From positions 1-64,000 of the forward strand of contig CAIXXM010000130.1 in assembly GCA_903923395.1 (NCBI GenBank): a stretch of 64,000 nucleotides of DNA. Reading direction: 5' to 3'. The notes beneath the pieces were generated by a model, which saw only the letters and a program-made list of their open reading frames with translations, did no database searches and was not told the origin of the DNA. The position numbers were made by a program, and so were the translations under genes. The DNA is from an uncultured Acidobacteriia bacterium. Lineage in GTDB: Bacteria; Acidobacteriota; Terriglobia; Bryobacterales; Bryobacteraceae. Below are positions 25,509 through 54,621 of this stretch, piece after piece. Numbering within the stretch: the first letter of the stretch is position 1; each line of letters opens with the position of its first letter.

Positions 25509-27077
25509 CTAGAACATCTCCCGCTGGGCTGTCGCGGTGTAATCTTCGAAGCTCTCTATCGTTCCGTCGCGTAGAACTTCCTCCTGCAACTCCTGCAGCG
25601 CATGGTGTTCCAGTGCCGGATGCCAGCCCGCGGCCTTGCCGTAGAGATCGGGATGCCTGCTTTGCAGTTCCTTCTTGATGGTTTTCAGTTTCCGCGTCAG
25701 GGCATCGCCGCTATAAAGCTCCGCAATCCGCTTCCTGGCCGCTGCTTCCCGGTACTTTCGATACTCTTCCTGCTGCTCAATGGTGTTGATTTGGCGTTGA
25801 ATATTCGAAACCGCTTCCATGTCCGTGCTGGAGGCCTGCTTGCGGCTTTCGAGCAGCGCTCTCTTCCGCGAAGTCTCGAAATCGGCCGGGATCGCCCAGC
25901 CTTCCTTCACCATCGTGAACAGAAAACCCGGTGGATTCTGCATGTTGGCACCCATGCGGTGCTTCAGGTCGTCGAACCAGTCCACCTGGTCGATCACGAA
26001 TTCCACATCCGCAACATCCAGCAGGAGCCGCCGGGCGTCGGTCTCGTTGATCCCGCGTTCCATCAGCGCGGCCACGGCTGCACGGATTTTCGGATCGCCA
26101 ATATCGTCCCCTTGCGTAACACCCAGCCTCGGACGCAGCACTGAAACCAGCCGCTCCCCGGGCCGCATCACGAGCTTGAAGTCTTCCCCGTCCGCCGACT
26201 TCACCACATCCCAGGCTTCCAGATACCCAATGCTCACCAGTTCCTCAAGCGAAGGCGTCAAGATCTGCCGGATCTTCGACAGATGCTTCCACTTCTGAAT
26301 GTCCAGCAACTGGCAGAGTTCCGAATAACGCCGCTCCACAGGCCGGCAGCGCGAGGCGTAAAACCAGACGTGCAGATGCCCGAACAGCGCCTTGGCGATA
26401 TCGCGGTTCAAGGTCACATACGCATTGAAGTCCATGCGCAGCAGGTAGTTGGTGTTGATGTTCTCCAGCTGCCACTGGCTCAGGTAAACGTAATTGCACT
26501 GCGCCACCGTGCCATCCGGCAATTCCTGCCCCACCAGTACGGCCCGGTCGAAGACGTGAAAAATATCCCGCTGGTACCGCTTCGTCTTGTTCGAGAAGAT
26601 CGCGTTCTCGCTCTTGATCGTCGTCGCGGTCATGCGTTCCAGGAACTGCGTGACCTCCTCGTAGTTCTTCCCGCCCGTATTGTGGCCAAGGTGCCGCAAC
26701 AGGTCATAGGTGGTGAACATCACCGGGTTCTGGATCTCGCCATCCCGGGCCTTCACATCGGTCACGATCTTCATCAGCGCCATGTACTTGTCACGGTCCG
26801 CCGTGGTGGGAAGACCGTGTTCCGGCGACGGTATGATCGTCGCGCTCTGGCGCACCACCTGACCATTGATCTGCCGCGACGGGAAGGTGATGGTTCTGAC
26901 CCGGCTGCGCTCCTCTTTGGTGGGACGCCCCTTCTTGGCCGGGATGAAGAAACCCAGCGAATTCAGGTTTCTCTCGACCTTGATCAGGTCTTGCACAGGG
27001 TTTGCCGTACCTGCCGGCACTGCGACGGGGATCAAAGAGGGTTGAAGTGAGGTATCTTCTGCTGGTTTCCGTGCCAT
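25509..27077 (-). CDS. Plasmid-type replication initiator (RepA/RPA family)
   Basis: A 522-residue protein that probably binds the iterons upstream of its own gene and opens the origin. Residues ~50-110 (SLGFFIPAKKGRPTKEERSR then a strand-rich stretch, and IIPSPEHGLPTTADRDKYMALM) and ~115-300 match the general layout of RPA/TrfA-like initiators with two winged-helix domains: MFTTYDLLRHLGHNTGG with the first recognition helix, NYVYLSQWQLENINTNYLLRMD, and LFGHLHVWFYASRCRPVERRYSELCQLLDI. Residues ~390-480 are charged and helical, probably coiled coil. Start ATG at 27077. It lies 9 bases upstream of gmhB. The family assignment is from motif memory and layout; the iteron array next to it is strong independent support. 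Confidence 0.85.
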   Translation of the reverse strand: MARKPAEDTSLQPSLIPVAVPAGTANPVQDLIKVERNLNSLGFFIPAKKGRPTKEERSRVRTITFPSRQINGQVVRQSATIIPSPEHGLPTTADRDKYMALMKIVTDVKARDGEIQNPVMFTTYDLLRHLGHNTGGKNYEEVTQFLERMTATTIKSENAIFSNKTKRYQRDIFHVFDRAVLVGQELPDGTVAQCNYVYLSQWQLENINTNYLLRMDFNAYVTLNRDIAKALFGHLHVWFYASRCRPVERRYSELCQLLDIQKWKHLSKIRQILTPSLEELVSIGYLEAWDVVKSADGEDFKLVMRPGERLVSVLRPRLGVTQGDDIGDPKIRAAVAALMERGINETDARRLLLDVADVEFVIDQVDWFDDLKHRMGANMQNPPGFLFTMVKEGWAIPADFETSRKRALLESRKQASSTDMEAVSNIQRQINTIEQQEEYRKYREAAARKRIAELYSGDALTRKLKTIKKELQSRHPDLYGKAAGWHPALEHHALQELQEEVLRDGTIESFEDYTATAQREMF

Positions 27078-38134: not shown

Positions 38135-39394
38135 TTACTCCGTGAATGAGCGGATTGTCTTCCGGTAGAACAAGTAGCAGGAGGTGCAGGAGAAGATATC
38201 CATCAGCGTGCTGGTCAGCGCAATGGCCCGGACAGGGCTGAGCACCAGCATGAGCAGACCAATGCAGACGAAGTTCAGCACCATCATGCGGGTGATGATC
38301 TTCGACCATTGCTTCTCATAGCCGAATGCCAGCATGAAGTACGTGCCGAAACACATACTCAGGGCGTGGACCACCGGGGTGAGGGACATCAACTGCAGCA
38401 GAACACCCGTTTCCGCGTACTTCGTGCCGTAGAGCAAATGGACGGCAAAGGGCGCGAAGAAGAGCAGGCCGCCGCTGATGGCCAGAAAAGGAGTGGCGGT
38501 CCAGAGCACCTGTTTCTTCAGGAACCGCAATGCCTCAGGCCGGGAGTTGGCGGCCATCCGGCTCATGTGGGGATAGACTGCCGAGGTTACGGGGTTGGTG
38601 AGCGCCCGCATGGCAATCATGAGTCTCTGTGCGGCATTCAGATACCCGACTTCGGTGGGCGAAGACACGAAGCCGAGAATCATGGTGTTGGTGGAGGAAA
38701 CCGCGATCATGCTGGCCGTGGAGAGGAATACCGGCCAGCCGCCCAGCATGGCTTCGCGCATATCCTGCAGATGCGGTTTGACCAGAGGAATGCGCAGTTT
38801 GAAGAACACCAGCCAAAGCCCGATCAAAGCGGAAATTAGAAAGCCGCCGGCTTGAAATGCGGCGACAAGAAGATAGTCCCCGGCTTTGTGGACGAAACCG
38901 AAGATACAGAGTACGGAGACAATCTTTGCGCCGTAATCAGAGTACGCAATGTAGCGCATCCGCTGCATGCCCTGCAGAAACCAGTTCGGAGAGAAACAGG
39001 AACCCGTCACCTGCAGGAAGCTCACCATGTAGAGCGGCCAGTACATGCGGAAGCGGGGAATGGTGGCCAGCAAACCAAGCAAGATCACAAAACAAAACAG
39101 CATCAGGCAGAGCTTGCAAAGCATGACGGTGCTGTAGATCCGGGCAATTTTCGCCGAATCGTCTTGTGCCATGGCAATCTGGCGTGTTCCGGTCACCGCG
39201 AAGCCGAACTCGGTGATCACGACGAAGTACAGAACCAGTGCGCCGCCTAAAGCAATGAGGCCGAAATTTGCCGGGCCGAGAACTCTTGTCAGATAAGGCA
39301 GAGTCACCAGAGGCAGCACGTAGCCGCTGACCTGCACGCCGAAAAGAATGATGGTGTCTTTTACAAGACGGTGTTTGGCAAGGTTCTTGAGCAT
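38135..39394 (-). CDS. Wzx-type polysaccharide flippase
   Basis: A 419-residue polytopic membrane protein of the RfbX/MOP type with about 12 hydrophobic segments. The N-terminus has KDTIILFGVQVSGYVLPLVTLPYL, and an FLQGMQRM loop at ~145, both typical of Wzx. Predicted to flip undecaprenyl-diphosphate-linked units. It precedes the lipoprotein gene on the same strand (10-base gap) and follows the GT-A-like gene (18-base gap), so the three probably share a transcript. It is only distantly similar to the flippase at 4891. Confidence 0.9.
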   Translation of the reverse strand: MLKNLAKHRLVKDTIILFGVQVSGYVLPLVTLPYLTRVLGPANFGLIALGGALVLYFVVITEFGFAVTGTRQIAMAQDDSAKIARIYSTVMLCKLCLMLFCFVILLGLLATIPRFRMYWPLYMVSFLQVTGSCFSPNWFLQGMQRMRYIAYSDYGAKIVSVLCIFGFVHKAGDYLLVAAFQAGGFLISALIGLWLVFFKLRIPLVKPHLQDMREAMLGGWPVFLSTASMIAVSSTNTMILGFVSSPTEVGYLNAAQRLMIAMRALTNPVTSAVYPHMSRMAANSRPEALRFLKKQVLWTATPFLAISGGLLFFAPFAVHLLYGTKYAETGVLLQLMSLTPVVHALSMCFGTYFMLAFGYEKQWSKIITRMMVLNFVCIGLLMLVLSPVRAIALTSTLMDIFSCTSCYLFYRKTIRSFTE

Positions 39395-39412: not shown

Positions 39413-40321
39413 TTACTTCACACCCAGCATGGCATCGATTTCACGATTTGCATAGTTGACCAGGACATCATCGTCAAACCGGCAGTAACCGAGAAAGTGC
39501 ATGAGAGAGATATCCGGTGGAATCCGGTGGTGTTCCCAGGTCATATACCGCGGCCAGGGCAGGCCGAAGCTGTCTGGTGAATTGGCGATACAGAAGTTGG
39601 AGCTGATCTGTTCGGTGCCCCACTCCTTCCAGCGCGGTCCCATCAGCTGCAGGGCTTTGCCGTAGAAGTCCTGGACAAAGGCCCGGTCTATTGCGCCCCG
39701 GGCAAACCCGGCGAAGCCTGAGGAGCCACGGAGATACAGAATCTTGTCAGAATCCGGATATTGCGGACCCTGCATTTCAAAGTCGATGACGATATTGTCG
39801 GATTTCTTGGCGTAAGCGTCCGCCACCCAGCTGTTGAGCGGCTTCTTGGGAATTCCCTCGGCGAGGGTAAATGCGCGGTTGGCTTGGACAGCGTCGAGCA
39901 CTTCCTGCATGGGGCCGACGCAGAGAACGTCAGCGTCCAGTTGAATCACAAAATGCGTGGCTGAGCGGTCAATGCAGAACAGGAGTCTTTCCCAGGTGCC
40001 GCCCCGCTGTATGCTGCCGGTGTCGATGGTCTCGACAGGAACGATTTCGATGCCGGGAATATGCTTTTCGAGCAGAGCTTTGCCTTCGGCCGAAACGCCG
40101 TCGGTGATGGCAGTGATTCTTCCGTGCCCGATCCTGCGGTAGAAAGCCTTGATGGCGAGGATGTAGAGTTTCACATCATAGCCGGCCACCATGCTGACGA
40201 TATTCAGGGGGGAATCCTGCTGGTGTGCATCTTGAATGATCAAGGGCGGCGTATCCAGCAATCGCTGGATACGTTTGTGGAACTTGAAGTATTTGAGGTT
40301 CCGGCGAAGGCGGTAGAACAT
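39413..40321 (-). CDS. Putative GT-A fold glycosyltransferase-like protein
   Basis: A 302-residue protein, probably cytoplasmic. Residues ~40-160 form a nucleotide-sugar-transferase-like Rossmann region, with GGTWERLLFCIDRSATHFVIQ followed by LDADVLC, a possible DxD donor/metal-binding motif, near residue 128. The rest is helical and ends in a MTWEHHRIPPD segment. No family name was recognised beyond a GT-A-like fold; it could be a family 8-type or DUF-type glycosyltransferase. Its place between two acyltransferase genes and a flippase supports a sugar-transfer role. Confidence 0.55.
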   Translation of the reverse strand: MFYRLRRNLKYFKFHKRIQRLLDTPPLIIQDAHQQDSPLNIVSMVAGYDVKLYILAIKAFYRRIGHGRITAITDGVSAEGKALLEKHIPGIEIVPVETIDTGSIQRGGTWERLLFCIDRSATHFVIQLDADVLCVGPMQEVLDAVQANRAFTLAEGIPKKPLNSWVADAYAKKSDNIVIDFEMQGPQYPDSDKILYLRGSSGFAGFARGAIDRAFVQDFYGKALQLMGPRWKEWGTEQISSNFCIANSPDSFGLPWPRYMTWEHHRIPPDISLMHFLGYCRFDDDVLVNYANREIDAMLGVK

Positions 40322-40369: not shown

Positions 40370-41473
40370 TCAGGCAAAGAGCATACGGGCCGCCAGTTTC
40401 CGGCCAATTCCACGGGCCGGTTTTTCAATATATTTCCAGGTCAGGAGCGGTATCACTGTCAGAGCTGCCACAAGCAACAGCGCGGTGATGATCCTCCACA
40501 TAACTTCAGGGGAGTACCTGTTGACGGCATATTCCACCATGTGCAACACAATCGAATGCGTCAAATAAAGAGAGAAGGAGACCTCGCCGGAGAATACGAC
40601 CACAGGATTGCTGAGGAATTTTCCTGCGAAGCTGTCAGAATCTGCAACGGTCAGGATCAGCCAGCCGAATGGCACGATGCAGAGTGGTGTCCATGCCGGG
40701 TTCAGCAAACCGGCAAGAATCAAGGCGAATGCGGCGAGTGTTGCCAATCGACTGCCAGAGGGCTTGCTGTCCCCGGAAGCATAGGCCCGCTGCAGCAGGC
40801 AGCCGGCGGTGAATTCGCAGGCCAGACGGAGGAAGCCGGCTTTGAGGCCGGAGACATCCATGCTGCGCCCTGTTTTCAGGAATACGGCAGTGAGCAGGCC
40901 AAGGCTGAGGCCGGCACAAAGTAAAGCTGTCGTGCGGCGCTGTACGTTGCGGCAGATCATCAATAGTGCGGGAAAGCAGAGATAGGCCAGAAACTCAGCG
41001 CTCAGAGTCCAAGCCGGGCCGTTCCAGATTACGGGGTTGTGCAGAAAGTTCTGCAGCAGCAGTGCGGAGAATACAAAGTTGTGCCGCGAAAAATAGTCGG
41101 GAGCGTAGTTGGCGGTAAAACCAGGCAGCACAAAGACAATGAGGGCAAAGACACAGAGTGCGAAGAGGTGAAGCGGATAGATGCGGGCAAGCCGGATGAG
41201 AAGGAAATAGAAATACTCCCGGTAGTTCCACTTTTGAAAGGATGTGGCGTACACGTGACTCAATATGAAGCCACTGAGGATGAAGAAGATATCGACGCCC
41301 AGGTAGCCATCCCGCAGGAAGGGCAGTTTTTGCAAATCTTCCACACCGGCCAGGTGCCCCAGAGCATGGCTGGTATGAGAAAAGACAACCCAGGCTGCCG
41401 CCACTCCCCGTATTCCGGTGAGTGCGGGCAGTGATTTCACCTGGCCAGTGTTGCTGGTGGTACGCGCTGGCAT
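40370..41473 (-). CDS. Acyltransferase 3 family membrane protein
   Basis: A 367-residue integral membrane protein of about 10 helices. The N-terminus has LTGIRGVAAAWVVFSH, and FLRDGYLGVDIFFILSGFILSHVY follows, the catalytic-His and glycine-rich motifs of OafA/YrhL O-acyltransferases that acetylate surface sugars across the membrane. Start ATG at 41473. A paralogue is at 41609-42799 upstream on the same strand, but with a 135-base gap that may contain its own promoter. Confidence 0.9.
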   Translation of the reverse strand: MPARTTSNTGQVKSLPALTGIRGVAAAWVVFSHTSHALGHLAGVEDLQKLPFLRDGYLGVDIFFILSGFILSHVYATSFQKWNYREYFYFLLIRLARIYPLHLFALCVFALIVFVLPGFTANYAPDYFSRHNFVFSALLLQNFLHNPVIWNGPAWTLSAEFLAYLCFPALLMICRNVQRRTTALLCAGLSLGLLTAVFLKTGRSMDVSGLKAGFLRLACEFTAGCLLQRAYASGDSKPSGSRLATLAAFALILAGLLNPAWTPLCIVPFGWLILTVADSDSFAGKFLSNPVVVFSGEVSFSLYLTHSIVLHMVEYAVNRYSPEVMWRIITALLLVAALTVIPLLTWKYIEKPARGIGRKLAARMLFA

Positions 41474-41608: not shown

Positions 41609-42799
41609 TCAGGCTGTTGCTCTGTTCCTGAACTTCTGCTTCAGATACTGGTGAGCAGGTTCTTCAACAAACTTGTAAAAGACACAAGAGACAGCCGTCA
41701 CGCCAGTCAGGTATGCCAGAAACCAGGGCAGACCAGTTGCGTCCGCGTGAAATAGATGAACAAAAGCCGACTTCAGGTAAGCCGAAAGCGGCGCGTGCAG
41801 GATATACATCGAGTAACTTGCATTACCGAGGAATACGAACATGGGACTCGAAAGCAGTTTCCCCGGCAGACCGCCCTCAAAGGCCAGGCCGAGGATCAGA
41901 GCACAGCCGGCGGGTGCCAGCAGTCCGTTATGAACCGGAGGGTACGGAATGCGGTAGCCGTTCATGAGCAGGAAGAGCGCTGCCGCGATGGCGGGCAGGT
42001 AGAGGAAATAGCCGCGGTTCCTGAGCCAATGTTCCGGTGGCGTGATTCTGTACACGCGGGCGAGCAGAATTCCGATGCAGAACTCCGGCAGCCGGAGAAG
42101 CGGATTGTAACGCGCGAAACCTGGCCAGAGACCGTTGTCATCCGGGAAGTCCGATGCGGTTGCCGGCACGTCTCCAAAGCCGTGGATGCCAGCGAAGACG
42201 GTGTAGAGAGGGACAGCGAGAGCACAGAGCCAGAACAGGGTTGCGGCCAGGCTGAAGCGAAGCGCACTGAAAGAGACTTTTCCAGGAAGGCACCAGATCG
42301 CATAACCCACAAAAGGCAGCAACGCGTAGAAAAAGGCTTCGTTTGACAAAGACCAGCCCGGGTAGTTCCAGGTTAGTGCTGTCTGGGGAATCCAGGCCTG
42401 CAGCAGTACGAGATTGAGAAGGAGGCTGGACAGGTTTCCGGAATCCAGCGAGAGGCCGGCATACAGGCGGTAGGCGGTGAACGGAAAAAGCAGCAGGGTT
42501 CCGGTCAGATAGGCAGGATAGATTCTTGCGAAACGCGCTGCGGCGAATCTTTTGAGATTTTCCCTCCGGCTGAGGTTTCCGAGGTCATAGTTATAAGCGA
42601 GCACAAAGCCGGAGAGAATGAAGAAAGCTCCGACGGCGGCATAGCCGGTGTGCAGAACAGAGTAGAGCGCAAGCCGCCAGAAGGAGGCGGGCTGGAAGAA
42701 GGAATCGACAGAAGCTTCCTGATGATACGCAACCACCCACAGGGCAAGAAAGAACCGCATGCCGGTCAGGGCTGGAAGAATACGCCTGCTGCTGTCCAT
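41609..42799 (-). CDS. Acyltransferase 3 family membrane protein
   Basis: A 396-residue OafA-like multi-helix membrane O-acyltransferase: LPALTGMRFFLALWVVAYH with the conserved His, FFILSGFVLAYNY, and a RFAAARFARIYPAYL cytoplasmic segment. Start ATG 42799 is used; upstream extension falls inside the preceding Wzy-like gene. It is 10 bases after that gene, so it is probably co-transcribed with it. Acyl donor and target sugar are unknown. Confidence 0.9.
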   Translation of the reverse strand: MDSSRRILPALTGMRFFLALWVVAYHQEASVDSFFQPASFWRLALYSVLHTGYAAVGAFFILSGFVLAYNYDLGNLSRRENLKRFAAARFARIYPAYLTGTLLLFPFTAYRLYAGLSLDSGNLSSLLLNLVLLQAWIPQTALTWNYPGWSLSNEAFFYALLPFVGYAIWCLPGKVSFSALRFSLAATLFWLCALAVPLYTVFAGIHGFGDVPATASDFPDDNGLWPGFARYNPLLRLPEFCIGILLARVYRITPPEHWLRNRGYFLYLPAIAAALFLLMNGYRIPYPPVHNGLLAPAGCALILGLAFEGGLPGKLLSSPMFVFLGNASYSMYILHAPLSAYLKSAFVHLFHADATGLPWFLAYLTGVTAVSCVFYKFVEEPAHQYLKQKFRNRATA

Positions 42800-42809
42800 T
42801 TGTGAGGGG

Positions 42810-44279
42810 TTAGCCCCTGCCTGCGGGGTAAGAGGGTTGTAGTGGACGCGGGAAAGCGCCTCCCGGCCTCTTGGCTGGAGCTGCTGCGGGCGGTTCAGCA
42901 GAAGCAGGCATGGCATTCCGGGCGGCGGCAAGTTCCGCCTCTTTCAGGATGTTCTCAAGGGCTATCGCCATGGCGGCCAGGACAAACTGTTGCGGATGTC
43001 TGTCGCATGTCATGAACAGTGCGCAGATGACGAAGTAGCCAAGTGCAGCTTCCATACACAGCAGCAGGTTGGCAATCAGTTTCCAGTCCGGGTGGTGCTT
43101 CGCCAAATTCAGTTTTCGTAGTCTTACGGTGGCGGAATAGATGGAAAACAGGAAGTAGAGATAGATCAGAAGTCCGACAATGCCGGATTCCCCTGCCACT
43201 TGCAGGAAGGTATTGTGCGAGGGAAGGTAGGGTTTCAGGGAACCATCCGGATTCGGCATCCGGTTCCTCCGGTAGTCGACAAACGTACCGGGGCCAACGC
43301 CAAAGACGGGATTTCCCAGTGCCATTTGGATGGCATCCTGCACCAATTGCTTGCGTTCGAGCAAGGATTCATCGGCTTCACTCAAAACTGTTGACCGGGC
43401 CTGGCTGGCCACGTCGGAAAGCTTGAATGAATTGCCGAGGCTGGCGAATCTCTCCAGAGTGCTCTTGGGGAGCACTGCAACCGCGCCAATGATTCCGAAG
43501 ATGCTGAAGGCCACGAGCAGTACTTTTTGCGCGCCCTTGGCGCGGACGAAATAGATGCCGATCATCACTGCCAGCGCGGGAATCGCCGCTCTGGTTGCCG
43601 TACGGCCCGTGGAGAGAAGCAGGTAGCAAACACCGCCGATAAATACCGTGTACTTCAAAAAGGAATTTTTCAGCCAGCTGGCTGTCAGCACAGTGAAAGG
43701 AATGGCAAAGCCGGCCAGCAGTGCCACGTCATCAGAGTTGCCGAAGGTGGTGCCTTTCAACTCCAGGCGTCCGTTTGCATCGGAACTGCCACTGACAAGC
43801 AGGTGAAAGATGCACGAGAAAGATACCACCGCACACATTTTGGCTATATCATTCGGCGCTTTAGGTGTCACGGCCGTGAGCAGCATGAGAATGATCCAAA
43901 ACTGCAGATAGCCCATCACAAACTCCACACTGCCGGAACGCCAGTAACTGAAAGGAGCCGAGATACACATCCAGGTCAGCAGGAATGACATGCCAAGGCC
44001 AACCTTGGAGCCCATCAGTTTGATCGAGCCGCTGACCAGCACGAGCAAAATACAGATTGAGCAGATCACTGCAGGAATCCGGAGGCCCGTCAGCACGATC
44101 TCGAAAGGTCTGCCGAAGTAGTTGAAGATCAGCAGCAGGCTGAAGAACATCATGAGTCCGGATGCCTTGGGTTGCGCAGCCTGTTGCAGCTGACCGAAGG
44201 TTTGCGGCTGTGTCCGGTTGTCACGGCCGGCGCGGAAGGCATTGGACTGTACGAAACCTGTCTTCGCTGCTGGACTCAT
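42810..44279 (-). CDS. O-antigen ligase/Wzy polymerase-like membrane protein
   Basis: A 489-residue protein with about 10-12 membrane helices. The long loop contains GNPVFGVGPGTFVDYRRNR and SHNTFLQVAGESGIVGLLIYL, the Wzy_C/O-antigen ligase signature with a conserved His. ATG at 44279 is chosen because GGAG lies just upstream; a longer opening to 44363 exists. The hydrophilic last ~45 residues are Ala/Pro-rich. With the other two Wzy-like proteins in the window this suggests separate polymerase and ligase roles, or two polymers. Confidence 0.85.
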   Translation of the reverse strand: MSPAAKTGFVQSNAFRAGRDNRTQPQTFGQLQQAAQPKASGLMMFFSLLLIFNYFGRPFEIVLTGLRIPAVICSICILLVLVSGSIKLMGSKVGLGMSFLLTWMCISAPFSYWRSGSVEFVMGYLQFWIILMLLTAVTPKAPNDIAKMCAVVSFSCIFHLLVSGSSDANGRLELKGTTFGNSDDVALLAGFAIPFTVLTASWLKNSFLKYTVFIGGVCYLLLSTGRTATRAAIPALAVMIGIYFVRAKGAQKVLLVAFSIFGIIGAVAVLPKSTLERFASLGNSFKLSDVASQARSTVLSEADESLLERKQLVQDAIQMALGNPVFGVGPGTFVDYRRNRMPNPDGSLKPYLPSHNTFLQVAGESGIVGLLIYLYFLFSIYSATVRLRKLNLAKHHPDWKLIANLLLCMEAALGYFVICALFMTCDRHPQQFVLAAMAIALENILKEAELAAARNAMPASAEPPAAAPAKRPGGAFPRPLQPSYPAGRG

Positions 44280-44439
44280 GGATCTCCAGAACTCATTGTA
44301 ACGGTTATCTACGGGGAAACGAAGTCCCGCTATCGCCTTATGAGGGGGATGGAACACACCCAAATGAGCGGTTGGCCTTTGCCCCTCCGTTCACTATCGG
44401 CAGAGCGGATTTTCTGGTATCTTGGGCGGGCGTTCTGTG

Positions 44440-45201
44440 ATGAATCATTCCCTTTTTGAAATGTCCGGCAAAACAGTGCTCGTGACCGGTGCGTCCTCCG
44501 GTATTGGCCGGGAGACTGCCATTTTGCTGAGCATAATGGGCGCGACTGTGGTTCTGACCGGCAGAGACACGGGCCGTCTGGAAGAAACCCTGTCGCGGAT
44601 GGCGGGTGACGGCCACAAGGTGGAGCCGTTTGATCTGGGGGATGTAGACGCTATTCCGGCCTGGATCAAGCGGATTGCCTCTCAGACCGGACCGCTGCAT
44701 GGTCTTGTGCACAGTGCGGGAATTCAGCACACGATTCCGTTGCGGGTGCTGTCGGCGGCAAAGCTCGAAGAACAGATGAGGACAAACTTCACCAGCGCCG
44801 TCATGCTGCTGAAGGGCTTCCGCCAAAAGGGATGTGTGGCGCCACGTTCGAGCGTGGTGCTGCTGTCTTCGGTGCTTGGCCTGGCCGGACAGCCGGCCGT
44901 ATCTGTTTACTCAGCCAGCAAAGCTGCTCTGATCGGGTTTGCCAGGTCCGCCGCGGTCGAACTTGCGGGAGAAGGCATCCGGGTGAACTGCGTGGCTCCC
45001 GGCTATGTGGAAACGGAAATGGCCGGGGAAATCCGGACAAAAATGACTCCGGAGCAGTTCGAAGCTATTTCCCGGCTCCATCCTCTGGGCCTTGGTACGC
45101 CGGGGGACATTGCCCATTCCATCGCGTTCCTGTTGTCAGAAGCTGGCCGCTGGATCACGGGAACGACACTGGTCGTCGACGGCGGCTACACCGCCCATTG
45201 A
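44440..45201 (+). CDS. Short-chain dehydrogenase/reductase (FabG-like)
   Basis: A 253-residue NAD(P)-dependent oxidoreductase: TGASSGIG (16-23), HSAGI, catalytic Ser143/Tyr157/Lys161 (VYSASK), and a C-terminus ending in TGTTLVVDGGY. It reads like a 3-oxoacyl-ACP reductase. ATG at 44440. It is followed by an ACP, a hexapeptide acyltransferase and a KASIII gene on the same strand, so its substrate is likely a beta-ketoacyl-ACP made by KASIII. Confidence 0.9.
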   Translation: MNHSLFEMSGKTVLVTGASSGIGRETAILLSIMGATVVLTGRDTGRLEETLSRMAGDGHKVEPFDLGDVDAIPAWIKRIASQTGPLHGLVHSAGIQHTIPLRVLSAAKLEEQMRTNFTSAVMLLKGFRQKGCVAPRSSVVLLSSVLGLAGQPAVSVYSASKAALIGFARSAAVELAGEGIRVNCVAPGYVETEMAGEIRTKMTPEQFEAISRLHPLGLGTPGDIAHSIAFLLSEAGRWITGTTLVVDGGYTAH

Positions 45202-45233
45202 GAATCCGTTCCGCGTGTTATGATCTTCGCAGC

Positions 45234-45455
45234 ATGCAAAAAGAAGAGTTCTTGCAGCATATGAGCGCCATGGTGGACCTTGATGAAGGTACGCTAACCG
45301 GCTTGGAAAAGCTGGAGGATCTTGAAGGGTGGTCCTCAATTTCCATGGTTGCATTCATCGCTTTCGCGGATGAGCATTTCAGCAAGCGCGTCTCACCGAG
45401 AGATATAGCTGGTGCCGAAACAATAGACGATTTGGCTGGCCTGGTCGGTCTCTAG
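45234..45455 (+). CDS. Acyl carrier protein with unusual attachment motif
   Basis: A 73-residue acidic protein with the size and helix pattern of an ACP ([33 protein letters not shown]). The usual GWDSL phosphopantetheine motif is GWSSIS here: Ser35 can still be the attachment site but the preceding Asp is Ser. ATG at 45234 lies 32 bases after the SDR stop; the longer open frame from 44832 overlaps the SDR and is not used. It would carry acyl groups from KASIII through the SDR to the acyltransferase. Confidence 0.85.
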
Positions 45456-45471
45456 TTTCCAAGCGGGATTC

Positions 45472-46266
45472 TTGAAAAGTACCCCCTCTATGGGCTGGAA
45501 TACATTCCTACTGAAGCTGAAGCGGTCTCAGAATCCACAAGCGCTGTTCCTGAAACGCTGTATTCTCTTTCTCCGGACCCCAACTGTTCCCCGCTGGCCG
45601 CACTTGTTCTTCCCTTTACTGCGCTTGCTTTACGAAGCGTGGTTCATCCTGGTCGGGCTTTGGCGGGTTGCTCTCAACAAGTTCCTGTGGGGTGCCCTCT
45701 TTCAGTCCCGCTGCGCCAGTTTCGGCAGTGACGTGGAAATCCACGGGCTTCCCTATGTCAACGGACATGCTGAGATCAATATTGGCAACAAGGTGTTTCT
45801 CGGCGGCAATGTGTCGATGCACAGCGGAAGAATCTTTGACAATCCCCGCTTCGAACTCCGGGACAGATCAGCCGTTGGCTGGAATGTGATTCTCGTTGCG
45901 AACAAAGAAGTGGTGATTGAGGAGGATGTGATTGTCAGCTATGACTGCCGCATCTCTGATTCCGATGGTCATCCGAGAGAAATGGATCTGCGGGCCGAAC
46001 GGCTTCCTCCAAGGCCGGAAGAGGTTCTGCCGGTCCGGATCTGCCGCGGGGCCTTCATTGGCAATGGAACACACATCATGAAGGGCGTGACCATTGGTGA
46101 GGGAGCCGTGGTTTCAGCCAACAGTGTGGTCATCATGGATATCCCCCCCTACTGTATGGCCATGGGAAACCCTGCCGAAGTGTATTTCCGCAACTACGGC
46201 CTGCCCAGCACGCATCCTTCCAGGCAGAAGAAGAACAAAAAGTCTGCACTGGAACCGTCTGCCTGA
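45472..46266 (+). CDS. Hexapeptide-repeat acyltransferase
   Basis: A 264-residue protein whose start is TTG at 45472 or ATG at 45490. A hydrophobic helix is at ~45-62 ([20 protein letters not shown]). Residues ~90-235 carry left-handed beta-helix repeats ([25 protein letters not shown] split over several turns, [40 protein letters not shown]). This matches WcaF/Maa-like O- or N-acyltransferases. Next to an ACP and KASIII it may use acyl-ACP rather than acetyl-CoA. Acceptor unknown. Confidence 0.82.
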
Positions 46267-46284
46267 GAAGCACAAGAAGGAACT

Positions 46285-47301
46285 GTGAAGTCACGAATCG
46301 CAGCAATTGAATACTATCTCCCCGAAAATGTGCTGAGCAGCGCTGATCTTTCCGCGCAATTTCCGGAATGGCCGGTGGAGAAGATCCGCCAGAAGACAGG
46401 CATCGACAACCGGCACATCAGCGCCCCTGGAGAGTGCGCCTCGGATCTGGCCGCGGCAGCCGCGCAGAAACTGTTCGCCTCGGGGGCCGTACTCCCCGGG
46501 GAAATTGATTTTCTGTTGCTGTGCACGCAAAGTCCGGATTACTTTCTGCCAACCACCGCATGCCTTCTGCAGCACCGCCTGGGACTTCCGGTGGGCATTG
46601 GAGCACTGGATTTCAACCTCGGTTGTTCCGGCTTTGTTTATGGGCTCTCCCTTGCCAATGGATTGATCGCCACGGGAGCTGCGAAAAATGTTCTGCTGAT
46701 CACGGCGGAAACTTACAGCAAATTTCTTCACCCCGCTGACAAGAGCGTCAGGACGTTATTCGGCGATGCCGCCGCAGCCTGTCTTGTGACTGCAATACCG
46801 GAAGACGACCCCTCCGGTATCGGGCCTTTTGTCTTCGGAACGGATGGCAGCGGCGGTGAATATCTGATTGTTCCGACAGGCGGTATGCGGGAGCCGAGAA
46901 CCGAAGCCAGCGCCGAAGTGCAAAGCGATTCGAGCGGCAATCTGCGCAGCCGGGACTCGCTCTACATGAATGGCGGCGAAGTCTTCGCTTTCACCATCGC
47001 GAGAGTGCCTGACGCCGTGCGCAGCCTGCTGGCCAAAACCGGTCTCCAGCAGACAGATATCGATCTGTTCGTCTTCCACCAGGCCAACCAGTACATGATG
47101 GAGACGCTGCGGAAGAATTTGAAGATCGAAAAAGAGCGCTTCTTCGTCTACCTGGAGAACTGCGGCAACACGGTTTCTTCCACCATACCGGTCGCCCTCA
47201 AGGCTGCTATGGAACAAGGCCGTTTACAGCCCGGAATGCGGATCATGCTCGTCGGTTTCGGCGTTGGTCTGAGCTGGGCGGCGACCATACTGCACTGGTG
47301 A
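46285..47301 (+). CDS. fabH: 3-oxoacyl-ACP synthase III (KASIII)
   Basis: A 338-residue condensing enzyme. It has the catalytic Cys114 in NLGCSGFVYG, His265 in FHQAN and Asn295 in ENCGNTVSSTIP, the FabH triad, and the KTGIDNRHI N-terminal region. Start GTG at 46285 with AAGGAA upstream. It normally joins acetyl-CoA with malonyl-ACP; here, with the SDR and a dedicated ACP, it could make a short acyl group such as acetoacetyl- or 3-hydroxybutyryl-ACP for a sugar decoration. That use is inferred from the neighbourhood. Confidence 0.92.
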   Translation: MKSRIAAIEYYLPENVLSSADLSAQFPEWPVEKIRQKTGIDNRHISAPGECASDLAAAAAQKLFASGAVLPGEIDFLLLCTQSPDYFLPTTACLLQHRLGLPVGIGALDFNLGCSGFVYGLSLANGLIATGAAKNVLLITAETYSKFLHPADKSVRTLFGDAAAACLVTAIPEDDPSGIGPFVFGTDGSGGEYLIVPTGGMREPRTEASAEVQSDSSGNLRSRDSLYMNGGEVFAFTIARVPDAVRSLLAKTGLQQTDIDLFVFHQANQYMMETLRKNLKIEKERFFVYLENCGNTVSSTIPVALKAAMEQGRLQPGMRIMLVGFGVGLSWAATILHW

Positions 47302-47337: not shown

Positions 47338-48477
47338 ATGCATATTTGCTTTCTATGTCCGGAGTACCCGCCAGCACCGCATGGCGGCATCGGCAGTTTC
47401 GTGCAGACTCTGGGCCGGGAACTGGTACGCAGCGGCCTGCGTGTCTCTGTCATTGGTATTTACGGGTACGGTCCTGCATTCGAGGGTGAGATCAACGATG
47501 AAGGCGTCCGGGTCATCCGTGTGCCGAGCCGCGGTCCTGCGGGCTTGCGTGTGTTCTGGAATAACTGGCGGCTGCTGCGGGCCTTGCAGCAACTGCACCG
47601 GGAATCCCCCATCGATATTCTCGAGGGAAATGAGATTGCTTTTTGCCGTCTGCCCCGCTCTGCTCCCGGTTTGAAGCTTCTCCGGATGCACGGCGGCGCG
47701 GCCTTCTTCGGGATGACGAACCGGGTGGATTTATGGGGGGAAAAACGGTCGCTTCGGGTTGCTGATGAACTCTGCGGTGTCAGCCAGTGCGTGGCCGATG
47801 GAACCCGAAAATTGCTCGGTCTCGGCACCCGCCACATTGAAGTAATACCTAATCCCGTCGATATCAACCAGTTTTTTCCGGCAGATCCTTCTGTCGAAGA
47901 GGATGGATTGATTGTCTTTACCGGCACGGTCACAGCACGCAAGGGGATCCGCGAGCTGGTTCGGGCCATGCCCCGCATTGTTGCTGCTGTACCTCATGCC
48001 CGGCTGGAAGTTTATGGCGGCGAGAATGTGTTTCCCCCGCCGCCTGTGCCCCTCGCAAAGCAATTGAGTGATTCCCTGCCCCCGGAAATCGCCGCACGCA
48101 TCTCCTGGAAGGGCAGGGTTTCCCGCTCCATTCTGCCGGATGCTCTCCGCCGCGCCTCGGTATGCGTCTATCCTTCGTACATCGAGGCCATGCCCATCGG
48201 ATGGCTGGAAGGTCTCGCCACAGGCAAAGCAGTGGTGGCTTCCCAAACAGGCCCCGGTCCGGAAATCATAGAGGACGGTGTCACCGGGCTTCTCTGCGAT
48301 CCCTATAATCCGGATTCCATCGCTGATAAAGTCATCGGCTTGCTGAAAGACCCTGCTGCGCGGCAGCGGCTCGGGTCAGCCGCGCGGCGCCTATGTGTGG
48401 AGCGTTATACGCTGCCCGCACTGGTGGAAAGAAATATCAACTATTACAGAACATTGCTCGGGCGGAATTCTAAGTAA
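47338..48477 (+). CDS. Glycosyltransferase family 4
   Basis: A 379-residue GT-B enzyme: MHICFLCPEYPPAPHGG and IGSFVQTLGREL at the N-terminus, GLIVFTGTVTARKGIRELV near 205, and the donor-binding VYPSYIEAMPIGWLEGLATGK near 285. Glycine-rich TGPGPEIIEDG follows. Donor unknown. It overlaps the end of the convergent methyltransferase-like gene by 8 bases. Confidence 0.9.
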   Translation: MHICFLCPEYPPAPHGGIGSFVQTLGRELVRSGLRVSVIGIYGYGPAFEGEINDEGVRVIRVPSRGPAGLRVFWNNWRLLRALQQLHRESPIDILEGNEIAFCRLPRSAPGLKLLRMHGGAAFFGMTNRVDLWGEKRSLRVADELCGVSQCVADGTRKLLGLGTRHIEVIPNPVDINQFFPADPSVEEDGLIVFTGTVTARKGIRELVRAMPRIVAAVPHARLEVYGGENVFPPPPVPLAKQLSDSLPPEIAARISWKGRVSRSILPDALRRASVCVYPSYIEAMPIGWLEGLATGKAVVASQTGPGPEIIEDGVTGLLCDPYNPDSIADKVIGLLKDPAARQRLGSAARRLCVERYTLPALVERNINYYRTLLGRNSK

Positions 48478-49367: not shown

Positions 49368-52300
49368 TCAGCGTACGCTGACTGTCTTCGCACTGCCCGT
49401 GGCAACCTGCACATTTGCCGGGTTCAGATAACGGCTGGTTAGCGTATAATCCCCCACCGGCGCTGTGAACGAGCATGGCGACTCCAGGCAGACGTGCGTC
49501 ACCGCGGAACTGCCGTCCAGCGGCTGCAGTTCCACCGCCATCTGTGCTGCTCCCTGGTTCGGCGGCAGCGTGAACTCCAGCAATACTTTTCCGATACCCG
49601 CGCTGGGCGTCCGGAAGCTGCCGCTGGTGTTCTGGTCGCTCTCGTATTCCGTGTACAGAACGCCGTCGTTGGCCTGCTCGTAGTAGCACAGAATTCTATA
49701 CATGTAAGTGGACCCCTGTGTGAGACCCGTGACTCTCAGGGTCCGGGCCTGGCCTCCGCCTCCATCATTGGTGCGCGTCCATGACAGCCCGCCGTCTTTG
49801 CTCATATCCACATAACAGGCTCTTGTGTCTGGAGCCTTGTACTTGAAAAGCGCCGCCGTGGGCGCCACCAGCGGCGTCCTCACTTCCGTAACCATGCCCG
49901 CGTCAGAGAACAGCTGGTTGAAGTCCACACCCTTGCCATCATTCAGCGGACCCCTGCCCGTGATCTCGTAGTTAAAACGGGCAACATCGGTGAAACCAAT
50001 GGCCTTCTCGCGGCCAGCAATCGTTCCTCCGGCAATGTACTGGTCTCCCTGCGGCATTTGCGCAACTATGGCGGCCAGCTGTGACGAAGTCATATTGGTC
50101 ATCTGATTCGCCGCTCCCACATATCCCGCGATGCCCACGTTGTTCTTCCAAACATAGTTGCCCGTCTTCACCGATTGCCCGATATTGACGAAGGTGTTGT
50201 CGAGCATGGTTTTGAAGGGAGGCACGTTGACAAAAGACGAATTGGTCCCCGCCGTATAGGACGTGCCGGGCTTTACATCATGCCCGGTATACCCCGAACT
50301 CGGCCCCGGCCAGTCCCCGATAATGGCCCCCCAGAGAGTTCCCGGACTCCCTTCGGAAGCGCCCATCGACATATAGAGAATATTGTTCTCAAATTCCAAA
50401 TAGTTCCCCAGCATGTCGCCGCCGCCCAAATACAGCCAGGCCGGGATATCACCCTGCATCAGTCCGCCGGTATTATTCTTGATCGTCACGTTTTGACACG
50501 TTGGCCGGAGTTCAAAATAGGCAGACTGGAATCCCGGGCAGTTGGTCGTGTCGCAGTACAGGTATCTGCCCATGTCGTACATGAGATTGTTGGAGATCGT
50601 TATTCTGCTGGTAGGCTGCGGGTCACTGTCCTGCGAGATACCGTCGATCGCCGAGATCGAGCCGCAGCCGATGCCGGTCCGCGAATGGCGTATTATGTTG
50701 CTCTTGATCACCACATCGGAAATGCCGGAACTGAGAGCCTGCGGATTATAGTTTGGTCTGCCGGACAGGAATATGGCTGGTCCGTCATTTTGATAAGACC
50801 ACGCATAAGAGAAAACATTGCCTGAAAGGTTATACCGGTGTCCGCGTTTGCTCTCCCAGTGTTGACGCACATTGAAACGCCAGCCAATCCAATCCGGGTC
50901 CCTGACAAAGTAATTCTTCGGCCAGATATTGTGATTGTGGGTATATGTCAGGTCATCATGGGCATAGCTCGAAGTCTGCGCATCCACATAGAAGCCGAGC
51001 CCAACGCCGTCCATGTAATTGTTATCGAAGGTGTACGGGCCGCCCGGTGCCTGCAGGTCTGAGAACTGAACCCCGAGCGCGGAAAAATATTGGCTCGTGC
51101 ACGTTTCGCAATTTACATTCCAGGAAAGCTTGGAAAAGACTCCGCCGCTGATCGATCCTGTAAACAAAGGATACGCATTGGCGGGCGTTGCGGGCGTCGC
51201 GGTGGCAAGTGCTGTGCATCCCTGGCACTGAATGCCCGCGGTAGTGCCGGTTGTAGCCGTGTACTGTATCTCCAAGTGATCTTTATAAAGATTGCCGACC
51301 ACTGTTCCGGAGTAACTTGGAAGCGCACCTGTCAGCGTGGCCGTGGCCGGTCCTGTCATCCCGAGCATCGGAGTGGAAGCCTGGAACCGGTAAGTGTTCT
51401 GAGGAATGGACAGCGTAGTGCCGGCTGCATCCAGTCCGCCGGCTGTCATCGGCCAGCCACTCATGCGCCAGGTTTGGATATTGGATAGATAGCAACTCAG
51501 CATCGCCTGATAGTTACCTCCCAGCTCAATTGCCGTATACTGCCGGAAGGGTGGCGGCCAGCCATGCATATAGAGGCGGTCCAGCACCAGATAAGTGTTA
51601 TTGGCGCTTTGGTAACTGGAACCAAGCCGGAAGAAATACTGGAAGGCTGTCGGGTCTAATGCATCAGCGGGAGCCGTATAAGAGGGTGAGGGAGCAAACT
51701 CCAGATTCTCGAACCAGAAATGGTGAATACCGGCATCCCCGACTTCGCCGTCAAACACCTGCCCCGTCGCTATATTTTTAGGTGTCGGATTCTGTATGTA
51801 AAACTTGGCCAGCCTGGAGGACCACGCTGGCGTGATCCGTACTCCGTAAGGCGGAAAATCAGCGCTGTTCACGGCCTTCGTCCTCATCACGATGTAACGG
51901 TGGTTCGGCGAGTTCAGGTTTCCGCCAGCTTTCGGATCCAGCGGCTTGTGTGCAAGCCTGTAGCCGCCGAAATAGAGTGGACTGTCGTAGGCAACCACAC
52001 AGGCGGCTCCCTGATCGAACTCAAGCACTGTCCCGTAGCCAACCTTGGACAGTACTGTCCTCATCAGGTCACCGGCGGATACTGACCAGCCGTCTGGACT
52101 CGTTACAGACTGCTTGGCACCGCATTCCCCGGTGGCCGCGTTCTGTACACTCATCGGCACCACCGTGTAACCGCTGGTATCGGGATGCGCGGGCTTCCAG
52201 ACATTCGCCGGTATCGGAGTTTGCAGCGTGCCGGCAGCTGTGGTTACTGTTATTTCCCTGGCGCCGCAGGCAGCGGAGGCGCAAATGTTCGTATCATCGT

Positions 52301-52592
52301 TCGGGTTCGGCCGTGCCGTCGCAAGAATGTAATAAGTGGTGTTCGGTGCCAGGCCCCCCACGGACAGCGCTATGTCCGTGGCCTGCACTGATTTGGTGTT
52401 GTACGGGTACACTCCACTGGAAGTCCCGTACCGCAGCATGAGCCAACTCGAAGGCGATGCGCTCACCAGCACACGGAACGAGGCATTGTCGGTCGCCGCC
52501 GTATCAACTGCAATCTTCGTGATCACCGGCGTTTGCGCCGATGCGGCACAGGCTGCGGCGAACAACAGGAATAACATTCTCATCTTCTTCAT
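49368..52592 (-). CDS. Large secreted right-handed beta-helix protein with Ig/Fn3-like domains
   Basis: A 1,074-residue exported protein; a signal peptide (MKKMRMLFLLFAAACAASA) is followed by an Fn3-like domain (SWLMLRYGTSSGVYPYNTK, GLAPNTTYYILATA). Residues ~280-800 are rich in short strands with Asn ladders (for example VIKSNIIRHSRTGIGCG, ITISNNLMYDMG, VTIKNNTGGLMQG), the mark of a parallel beta-helix as in pectate lyases. A second Fn3-like unit (SKDGGLSWTRTNDGG) and a final sandwich follow. Start ATG 52592 has GAGGA upstream. Polysaccharide binding or cleavage is likely; catalytic residues were not identified. Confidence 0.7.
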   Translation of the reverse strand: MKKMRMLFLLFAAACAASAQTPVITKIAVDTAATDNASFRVLVSASPSSWLMLRYGTSSGVYPYNTKSVQATDIALSVGGLAPNTTYYILATARPNPNDDTNICASAACGAREITVTTAAGTLQTPIPANVWKPAHPDTSGYTVVPMSVQNAATGECGAKQSVTSPDGWSVSAGDLMRTVLSKVGYGTVLEFDQGAACVVAYDSPLYFGGYRLAHKPLDPKAGGNLNSPNHRYIVMRTKAVNSADFPPYGVRITPAWSSRLAKFYIQNPTPKNIATGQVFDGEVGDAGIHHFWFENLEFAPSPSYTAPADALDPTAFQYFFRLGSSYQSANNTYLVLDRLYMHGWPPPFRQYTAIELGGNYQAMLSCYLSNIQTWRMSGWPMTAGGLDAAGTTLSIPQNTYRFQASTPMLGMTGPATATLTGALPSYSGTVVGNLYKDHLEIQYTATTGTTAGIQCQGCTALATATPATPANAYPLFTGSISGGVFSKLSWNVNCETCTSQYFSALGVQFSDLQAPGGPYTFDNNYMDGVGLGFYVDAQTSSYAHDDLTYTHNHNIWPKNYFVRDPDWIGWRFNVRQHWESKRGHRYNLSGNVFSYAWSYQNDGPAIFLSGRPNYNPQALSSGISDVVIKSNIIRHSRTGIGCGSISAIDGISQDSDPQPTSRITISNNLMYDMGRYLYCDTTNCPGFQSAYFELRPTCQNVTIKNNTGGLMQGDIPAWLYLGGGDMLGNYLEFENNILYMSMGASEGSPGTLWGAIIGDWPGPSSGYTGHDVKPGTSYTAGTNSSFVNVPPFKTMLDNTFVNIGQSVKTGNYVWKNNVGIAGYVGAANQMTNMTSSQLAAIVAQMPQGDQYIAGGTIAGREKAIGFTDVARFNYEITGRGPLNDGKGVDFNQLFSDAGMVTEVRTPLVAPTAALFKYKAPDTRACYVDMSKDGGLSWTRTNDGGGGQARTLRVTGLTQGSTYMYRILCYYEQANDGVLYTEYESDQNTSGSFRTPSAGIGKVLLEFTLPPNQGAAQMAVELQPLDGSSAVTHVCLESPCSFTAPVGDYTLTSRYLNPANVQVATGSAKTVSVR

Positions 52593-52642
52593 TCTGTCCT
52601 CTTGTTCCACTGCTACTCAGTTCGTCAAGGCCCGCAAAGGTT

Positions 52643-54448
52643 TCACTGTGCGCTCCATGAAAGCAACGTGCAGCTCACAGGATTGCTTGACGGACCGCCT
52701 GCGGCAAAGACCCATTGGTTGTAGCTTGAGGCCACACCATACCCGCCCAGGGTACGGGAAGCCAGTTGCGTATACACCAGCCCGTTTGGCGAGTACGAAA
52801 GCAGCAATGCGCTGCCGGTCAATTGCAGCCGGAAAAATGCCAGGGAAGAGTTTCCGGCTCCCTGATTGCCTTGAAACAAATTGAGTCCTGCCAGACCGTT
52901 CGCCCAGCTTTCCTCTTCGATCACGTTCGTTGTCGACGAGAATATGGATGAAATCATGAAAGCTGCACTGGTGGACGTGTTCAGCACCCCGACGGAACAG
53001 AAACCGGTCGGACCTGTAACAACCTGTGAAGCGCTGATGACAGCATTTAATGTTGTGCTGGAACCCATGGGCAAATACTGCGCGGCGAGTGACCCGCCAG
53101 ACTGCGTGAAACTCTTGCTTAACAGGTTGAGCGCTCCGCCCAGGCCTGATGTGGTGAACGTGGATCCCGTCATATTCAACCCGGTCCAGCCGGTTGCCGG
53201 CGGTGTTGTCGCATTGAAACCGAAAGGCAGATAACTGCCGCCGGTCGTTACCGTCCCGCCTCCAGAGCTGCCGGCGTTCTGTGTCCAGGTATTCATAGCG
53301 GTACAGGAATACACATTCTGCCCGGCCGTGGCATCGGTTGCGAAATATTGTTCCCCCACGCTGCAGTTCGATGACATGGAACCTTTCAGCCCGGTGGGCA
53401 TGGGGAGAACATGCTGGGCACCTGAGAAATCCTGGGTTCCCGCCGTGTAGGCGTTGCTCTGATTGGTTTGTACCAGAGTTGGAGGCAGCAATACAGTTCC
53501 TCCCGAACCACCTGAACTCCCGTCTAAAACCTCCCAGTAAGGTCCGCCTGCCAATACCGAATTATAAGCCAGCGTAATGTTCTTGTATGGCGTGCCACAG
53601 TCCCCGGAGTCCAGCGACCCACCCCCAGCCTTTCTGATCTGCACTGCCGCCAGGCCGTTGACGGAGAGTGTAGGTGCCCCGGTACAGGCCGCGTCAGGTT
53701 GCCAGTAGAGCCGCATTCCATTGACATATCCAGGGAACGTGGAACTTGTCGAACAGGTATACGCAGTCGGGTTCCCGCCCGAGGAAAAGCAATCCACCGG
53801 TGTGCCTGCCTGAAAATCCGACACGGAAAGGACCACCGCTGTATCAGCCGACAACTGGCGGTTGATGATCTGTACGCCGGCCCCCGGCTGCAGCAGTGTC
53901 CCGCTGGAATAGTAATTCGTGCCATCACTCCACAAAGACAAGCCTTGCAGTGGCGGGAGCAGAATCGATGAGGCACCATCAATGGTGGAAACAGCCGGAG
54001 TCACTGTTACATTTCCTGAGGAACCGTTGAACAGGAAGACCTTCCATGTGGAGTTCATTGAGCTGTTCCCTGCCTGGGGCAGGGACACAGCAACCTGCCC
54101 TGTTCCGGTGTATACGACATTCTTGCCGTTATCACCAGTCTGCAGTGTGTCCGTGCTCCCTGCCGCGGTTCGCACTCCACTCGTTCCTCCGCCGCCGCCT
54201 CCCGCGATTTGGGTCCACACGCCCGTGGCCGTACAGCCATACAGGTTCGAGCCTGGAGTCGCGTTCGTCAGAAAATAGGCCTGTCCGGAGGTGCAACTGG
54301 ACGGCAGGGCACTGCCCGTTTGAAATGGCTTGGTCGGGCCTATCGCTGACATGTCCGCCGATTGTGTCTGGGTGCGGATGTTCAGTTTGGTTTGTGCCGC
54401 GCACGCTCCGGCCAGCAAGAGGATCCACGGAAAAGATCTAAGTTTCAT
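52643..54448 (-). CDS. Secreted Gly/Ser/Thr-rich protein with duplicated module
   Basis: A ~601-residue exported protein; a signal peptide ends near ACAAQ. It has two copies of a module with the pattern YF-x-T/D-AT-x-G-x-N-x-Y-x-CTA followed by TWTQ or VWTQ and a glycine-rich stretch (IAGGGGGG; NAGSSGGG), near residues ~60-90 and ~380-410. Between and after them are threonine-rich beta segments; the C-terminal ~180 residues resemble a concanavalin-like sandwich (FFRLQLTGSALLLSYSPNG). It is 50 bases upstream of the beta-helix gene on the same strand. Possible phage-fibre-like adhesin or polysaccharide-associated surface protein; family not recognised. Confidence 0.6.
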   Translation of the reverse strand: MKLRSFPWILLLAGACAAQTKLNIRTQTQSADMSAIGPTKPFQTGSALPSSCTSGQAYFLTNATPGSNLYGCTATGVWTQIAGGGGGGTSGVRTAAGSTDTLQTGDNGKNVVYTGTGQVAVSLPQAGNSSMNSTWKVFLFNGSSGNVTVTPAVSTIDGASSILLPPLQGLSLWSDGTNYYSSGTLLQPGAGVQIINRQLSADTAVVLSVSDFQAGTPVDCFSSGGNPTAYTCSTSSTFPGYVNGMRLYWQPDAACTGAPTLSVNGLAAVQIRKAGGGSLDSGDCGTPYKNITLAYNSVLAGGPYWEVLDGSSGGSGGTVLLPPTLVQTNQSNAYTAGTQDFSGAQHVLPMPTGLKGSMSSNCSVGEQYFATDATAGQNVYSCTAMNTWTQNAGSSGGGTVTTGGSYLPFGFNATTPPATGWTGLNMTGSTFTTSGLGGALNLLSKSFTQSGGSLAAQYLPMGSSTTLNAVISASQVVTGPTGFCSVGVLNTSTSAAFMISSIFSSTTNVIEEESWANGLAGLNLFQGNQGAGNSSLAFFRLQLTGSALLLSYSPNGLVYTQLASRTLGGYGVASSYNQWVFAAGGPSSNPVSCTLLSWSAQ

Positions 54449-54621
54449 AGTCAAAAGTGTTGTTCCCAACTCCCGGTTTCAAGCTAATGCCCAGTGGCAG
54501 CGCCTGCGGGACAGGAATTATCCAAGTGACTGATAAAACAATGGAAAAAAAACGGAAAACCGTGTGATGATGCTTTCGAAGGAATGGCCCACAGCCGCCA
54601 TTCTTCCCCCCGCCCGGGTTC

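Follow-up and report, generated by a model that had tools for sequence, protein, structure and literature searches.

The viosamine island of Pseudomonas syringae pv. tabaci 6605 contains vioS (338 amino acids, aa), vioR (253 aa), the acyl carrier protein (ACP) gene acp (69 aa) and vioB. In the accessible part of the published account, the glycan of a vioR mutant is rhamnose only, with the modified viosamine lost; the product is assigned as N-(3-hydroxy-1-oxobutyl)viosamine on flagellin, formed via acetoacetyl and 3-hydroxybutyryl intermediates; no vioS mutant is described; and each of the seven open reading frames (ORFs) of the island is matched, with 12-52% identity, by one in the glycosylation island of P. 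aeruginosa PAK (PMC3927599). The O-antigen locus of Flavobacterium psychrophilum has an ACP gene (wfpD), two ketoacyl-ACP synthase (KAS) genes (wfpC and wfpE), a reductase gene (wfpF) and a PglD-like gene (wfpG), all with predicted roles, and its acyl group was found by nuclear magnetic resonance to be 3,5-dihydroxyhexanoyl (C6), according to the accessible part of that paper (PMC6519341). An ACP and a 3-oxoacyl-ACP reductase are also present in Aeromonas group II flagellin islands, as far as the accessible text goes (PMC7874193), and in Acinetobacter 3-hydroxybutanoylated amino sugars have been listed or assigned to acyltransferases in papers whose main texts do not use the term "acyl carrier" (PMC3628348, PMC3726653). 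Here we analyse a related four-gene cassette from an uncultured acidobacterium of the family Bryobacteraceae (assembly GCA_903923395.1). The window is the whole stretch of 64,000 nucleotides that was analysed, bases 1-64000 of contig CAIXXM010000130.1 (C130; 70,539 bases), in a genome of 6.15 Mb and 169 contigs.

The cassette encodes a short-chain dehydrogenase/reductase (SDR), a dedicated ACP, a hexapeptide acyltransferase (AT) and a type III KAS (KASIII), in that order and all on the plus strand, with intergenic gaps of 32, 16 and 18 bases, exactly as a sequence-only reading of the window had described (Table 1). It is real, well conserved and known in principle; it is new by its acyltransferase, which is the unusual part. 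The four genes are conserved as a unit and are distinct from the housekeeping fatty-acid genes, and the AT family is genomically linked to ACPs. On balance we favour an AT that is ACP-dependent and most likely ester-forming, and that moves a 3-hydroxybutyryl-type group onto a Wzx/Wzy-type polysaccharide.

The KASIII scores 292.3 bits with PRK09352, over the cut-off of 249, and 260.7 bits with the fabH model TIGR00747, under the cut-off of 292.1, whereas the genome's own FabH on contig C27 passes that model with 367.2 bits. A housekeeping FabH is ruled out by this cut-off. Cys114, His265 and Asn295, which from knowledge of the family we take to be the catalytic residues, are invariant in seven aligned KASIII-type sequences, the C27 FabH included. 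Among solved structures 3gwa, from Burkholderia pseudomallei, scores highest (413 bits; runner-up 194 bits). The SDR is adh_short_C2/FabG-like and lies beneath the FabG-model cut-offs shown (TIGR01830, 156.8 bits against 297.75). The ACP falls just under the PF00550 gathering cut-off (18.7 bits against 20.8; E=0.0021), and its attachment Ser, together with a Trp two residues upstream, is present in 26 of 26 aligned ACPs, a selection made up of the window's own and 25 of 60-100 aa from related loci. On another contig of the genome (C30, 171895-173040, near the contig end), a second ACP (PF00550) is followed directly by a diverged KASIII-like ORF.

We examined the flanks (up to 6 kb, shorter at contig ends) of the best 80 of 491 matched KASIII relatives, with SDR, ACP, DegT, NeuD and Rieske profiles built from these very 80 loci, so that the tallies are in-sample. 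An ACP was found in 74/80 and an SDR in 70/80; because both flank 67/80, the grouping is not due to chance. NeuD-type acyltransferases occurred in 40/80 loci, DegT aminotransferases in 43/80 and Rieske proteins in 29/80; of the 40 NeuD-type loci, 34 also had DegT. The AT type of the window (at least 250 bits) was found in seven of the 80 loci, all Acidobacteriota. The ten top named relatives likewise belonged without exception to Acidobacteriota, and four carried Bryobacterales or Bryobacteraceae in their titles. With the window's own genome counted, the KASIII was detected in 7/19 genomes of the genus (E<=1e-70) and the ACP in 5/61 genomes searched (E<=0.001), a patchy distribution as expected for surface-glycan genes.

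Only 3 of 72,556 plasmid records held a KASIII match at E<=1e-60, the best being Burkholderia glumae pBGF3. Its island comprises flagellin and fliD genes, vioA, a KASIII (56% identical to that of the window and likewise under the TIGR00747 cut-off, at 242.6 bits), an ACP, an SDR, a Rieske protein and an acetyltransferase scoring over the cut-off of the NeuD/PglB/VioB model (TIGR03570, 189.9 bits). Between the ACP and the SDR of pBGF3 (locus L104, 9080-10364) there is also a KAS-like sequence split over two reading frames, for which the gene table used, itself incomplete, has no entry.

FabD and PlsX queries taken from the window's own genome (L189 and L190) matched none of 131 stretches at E<=1e-6, in a search whose positive control was the self-match only and which a very distant FabD could escape. 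We dismissed a fab operon on these empty queries. Among the ORFs listed on its strand, no fab gene order was evident around the C27 FabH. The comparisons support a module that would provide a non-housekeeping acyl supply and that is co-conserved with glycan genes. The proposal of the sequence-only reading that the module is self-contained, with its own ACP and KASIII, thus stands. Its further suggestion of a possible new decoration system does not, given the precedents in P. syringae, P. aeruginosa PAK and F. psychrophilum and the spread of the best 80 KASIII relatives over 12 named phyla.

Turning to the AT, it passes the PF00132 gathering cut-off (32.4 bits against 27). Its top PDB match by phmmer is 3jqy, the polysialic acid O-acetyltransferase NeuO (about 110 residues, 50 bits), with which it shares an SDGHP motif. 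It fails the NeuD/PglB/VioB model TIGR03570 (42.0 bits; cut-off 160.8) and is not the WbbJ equivalog PRK09677 (55.2 bits; cut-off 243). In alignment A1 the start Met of most relatives roughly coincides with residue Met7 of the AT, which makes the ATG at 45490 the probable true start, with a gap of 34 bases rather than 16; no clear ribosome-binding site decides between this ATG and the TTG at 45472.

Without recourse to the KASIII, we searched 257 genomes from the order for AT homologs (E<=1e-25). There were 42 places in 38 genomes, and all 41 besides the window were examined with their flanks. Eighteen places exceeded 250 bits, a threshold set once the data had been inspected, and were classed as close homologs; their neighbourhoods held an ACP in 17/18, a KASIII in 16/18, an SDR in 9/18 and DegT in 1/18 (L150). 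The exceptions lie at contig ends: L147 is without KASIII, and L161 without KASIII and ACP. The distant homologs comprised 23 places in 22 loci, with KASIII in only two (L140 and L172). Ten of the 22 loci instead had an FkbH-like HAD protein and a different kind of ACP (L163, L164, L166, L167, L169, L170, L171, L173, L174 and L179), L175 had the HAD protein alone, and nine had none of these. The profiles for the second ACP and the FkbH-like protein were built from five and three proteins, respectively, of the loci tallied. "FkbH-like" is itself a weak label, since three scanned proteins were under the PF00702 cut-off (E 0.0007-0.0073) and three had no HAD match; one related protein, in L147, matches the FkbH-like profile with 141 bits and passes FkbH_N with 43.7 bits. 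The FkbH-like protein, second ACP and distant AT apparently form another ACP-fed acylation cassette, to judge from gene content. In L166 a glyoxalase-family protein also lies beside this set.

Across the wider phylum, the AT was found at E<=1e-30 in 2/396 genomes, one of them that of the window, in a search that scored at most six candidates per genome and so may have missed some. In the other genome (G190) there was no ACP or KAS in the 12 kb of locus L137. The open-access literature, covered mostly short of full-text depth, yielded no ACP-linked hexapeptide O-acyltransferase in polysaccharide loci.

In the favoured pathway, KASIII would condense acetyl-CoA with malonyl on the dedicated ACP to give acetoacetyl-ACP, the malonyl being supplied by housekeeping FabD, and the SDR would reduce this to 3-hydroxybutyryl-ACP. 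The AT would then take the acyl group directly from the ACP and place it on a polysaccharide sugar, a lipid-linked repeat unit or a nucleotide sugar, most likely on a hydroxyl as an ester. We infer a C4 product because the single KASIII of the locus fits one condensation, whereas the C6 group of F. psychrophilum goes with two KAS genes. Acyl-ACP is the probable direct donor, since one AT family accompanies two kinds of ACP neighbourhood. The acetoacetyl to 3-hydroxybutyryl chemistry of the sequence-only reading is therefore reasonable; it is not new, as the same route is assigned to like genes in P. syringae in the accessible part of that account (PMC3927599).

The ester linkage is favoured because the best PDB match is an O-acetyltransferase sharing SDGHP, the AT fails TIGR03570, none of the genome's 13 DegT matches lies on C130, and DegT is so rare beside the close homologs. 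The amino sugar proposed as acceptor by the sequence-only reading is not favoured by the sequence: the VioB/PglD-type enzyme has been replaced, and the contig is without DegT. We therefore consider it unlikely, while giving it some weight, that the AT fills the VioB role and transfers the acyl group to an amino sugar whose synthesis is encoded in another part of the genome. N-acylation would agree with the N-acyltransferases used by described relatives of the KASIII/ACP/SDR set, with DegT accompanying most NeuD-type genes and with the DegT genes on other contigs. DegT absence was weakened as proof of O-acylation: NeuD-type cassettes in four same-genus genomes (L142, L143, L145 and L146, some with short flanks) have DegT in 0/4, so its absence is weak evidence for O-linkage.

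Several further observations weigh against an ester-forming, ACP-dependent AT. Related systems whose role has been described are N-acyl, perosamine N-acetyltransferases appear lower down among the PDB matches of the AT (27 bits), and the presumed catalytic His is replaced by Tyr in one of nine aligned ATs (L040). The AlphaFold2 models are weak, with a pLDDT (predicted local distance difference test) of 63.7 from nine sequences, in which the N-terminus is predicted to be helical, and of 69.1 from 17 sequences, covering residues 74-248 only. Foldseek gave no match at E<=0.001 with either model. A structural second look with VIA tied the N-acyltransferase AntD (Z 15.0) with OatWY (14.8), and AntD, OatWY and NeuO all fell at Z 14.7-15.0 with root-mean-square deviations of 11.5-12.0 A; this tie also speaks for N-acylation. 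The models give no decision between O- and N-linkage and were not used for it. The line defining close homologs followed the data, and the SDR lies in the fetched flanks of only half of them, so that the reduction step is not tied to the AT.

Two other explanations concern the acyl group rather than the linkage. The acyl-ACP could be used by other enzymes, for example the Acyl_transf_3 membrane proteins, with the AT an ordinary acetyl-CoA O-acetyltransferase. The nearest solved AT relatives are indeed acetyltransferases, and homologs of the membrane protein at 41609-42931 stand beside cassette genes in L140 and L158; yet AT homologs lie near two different ACP kinds in many loci, and among the matches listed such an Acyl_transf_3 occurs in L158 only of the 18 close-AT loci, which makes this improbable. 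We regard it as very improbable that the AT transfers acetoacetyl, or a modified or longer acyl group, and that the SDR is dispensable or works on another substrate. The half of close homologs without an SDR in their flanks would fit this, as would the second KAS and the Rieske protein in many relatives; against it, an SDR flanks most KASIII relatives, the window locus holds one KASIII and an SDR, and housekeeping FabG could stand in where no SDR is adjacent.

The favoured reading, of an ACP-dependent and probably ester-forming AT, can be extended. Tentatively, and with rather less confidence, we suggest that the AT belongs to a hitherto undescribed family of ACP-dependent polysaccharide acyltransferases of this acidobacterial order, with interchangeable ACP-loading modules. 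One would be KASIII with or without SDR, giving 3-hydroxybutyryl or acetoacetyl, and the other an FkbH-like HAD protein with its own ACP, giving a glyceryl-type or other hydroxy acid. If so, surface polysaccharides would undergo modular esterification with ACP-made acids. A tree of 96 KASIII sequences, out of 139 rows after exclusion of 22 Flavobacterium loci, sequences under 290 aa and duplicates, distinguished the main KAS paralogue (72 rows) from a second (20 rows); the second KAS was present in 38/80 KASIII-relative loci (among L020-L099). Most AT-bearing loci fell within one supported group of 21 rows, the window KASIII lay outside it, weakly supported beside L026 and L029, and the second-paralogue group took in the KAS of AT-bearing L151. 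Because the KASIIIs of AT-bearing loci scatter in the tree, the AT may have been joined with KASIII genes on more than one occasion. The presence of two KASIII paralogues per locus could track acyl chain length.

The surroundings were confirmed as a Wzx/Wzy-type polysaccharide locus, the setting that the sequence-only reading had given (Table 1). Besides the Wzy_C, Wzx and Acyl_transf_3 genes, the locus has a UDP-sugar dehydrogenase at 27664, a Bac_transf protein at 23398, an Asn-synthase-like amidotransferase at 31421 and more glycosyltransferases. In L158, from another genus of the family, the cassette occurs with homologs of the window's family 4 glycosyltransferase, Wzy, Acyl_transf_3, the ORF at 39413 and Wzx, and this is apparently the same polysaccharide cluster, as judged from shared homologs. 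The polysaccharide region also includes a match to replication initiator protein A (PF10134, 55.9 bits; 25509-27077, minus strand). Two large proteins without clear Pfam domains are encoded at 49368-52610 and 52643-54469 (minus strand). Their homologs lie side by side next to an ACP in L138 (1524 and 440 bits), and are found in L172 with ACP, AT and KASIII (668 and 60 bits).

Table 1. Cassette genes and neighbouring polysaccharide genes in the window
Feature	Position	Strand	Evidence and remarks
SDR, FabG/VioR-like 3-oxoacyl-ACP reductase, 253 aa	44440..45201	+	ATG start; PF13561 184 bits, PF00106 155 bits
Dedicated ACP, 73 aa	45234..45455	+	ATG start; weak PF00550 match; attachment Ser
Hexapeptide acyltransferase (AT), OatWY/NeuO/WbbJ-like	45472..46266	+	TTG start; PF00132
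KASIII, VioS-like, not FabH	46285..47301	+	GTG start; PF08545/PF08541
Glycosyltransferase family 4, directly downstream of KASIII	47338..48477	+	PF00534/PF13439; homologs with cassette genes in L140, L158
Wzy/O-antigen ligase-like polymerase (Wzy_C)	42810..44363	-	PF04932; homologs with cassette genes in L140, L158
Acyl_transf_3 membrane acyltransferase, which might use the acyl group instead of the AT	41609..42931	-	PF01757; homologs beside cassette genes in L140, L158
Second Acyl_transf_3 membrane acyltransferase	40370..41473	-	PF01757
Wzx-like flippase (Polysacc_synt)	38135..39394	-	PF01943; homologs with cassette genes in L158, L162

The comparison with described systems yields two predictions: acyl chain length should follow from how many KAS genes are present, and a single acyltransferase family should accept acyl groups provided by either of two ACP-loader types. 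Should the ester reading hold, such cassettes would help to infer surface-polysaccharide chemistry from genomes alone. The AT resembles the polysialic acid O-acetyltransferases OatWY and NeuO (PDB 2wlc/2wlg and 3jqy) in its hexapeptide family, its SDGHP motif and its best phmmer match (3jqy); those enzymes use acetyl-CoA and are not known to have an ACP partner. The exopolysaccharide of Rhizobium leguminosarum reportedly, by the title of a paper, carries O-(3-hydroxybutanoyl) groups, a precedent for ester-linked 3-hydroxybutyryl on exopolysaccharides; we know of no ACP cassette for these groups. The wfpC-wfpG genes of F. psychrophilum likewise combine ACP, KAS, reductase and acyltransferase for a glycan acyl group, there in an O-antigen locus, and differ in their two KAS genes, the C6 group and a PglD-like N-acyltransferase acting on Qui2NAc4N.

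The closest likeness is to the P. syringae island, in which KASIII and SDR have the same lengths as in the window (338 and 253 aa), the ACP is 69 rather than 73 aa, and a dedicated acyltransferase is present. Of the parts of a viosamine-type module, the window has a KASIII of the VioS kind, a resemblance judged through the B. glumae island KASIII (56%) as a proxy for VioS itself, an ACP with its Ser and a FabG-like SDR; it lacks a VioB-type acyltransferase and an island DegT. Thus, unlike the flagellin glycan island of P. syringae with its VioA aminotransferase and VioB, the window has a polysaccharide locus with an OatWY-like AT and no DegT. An acyl-supply module of known type is thereby located in the polysaccharide loci of Acidobacteriota, linked there to a class of acyltransferase that the versions with a described role do not use.

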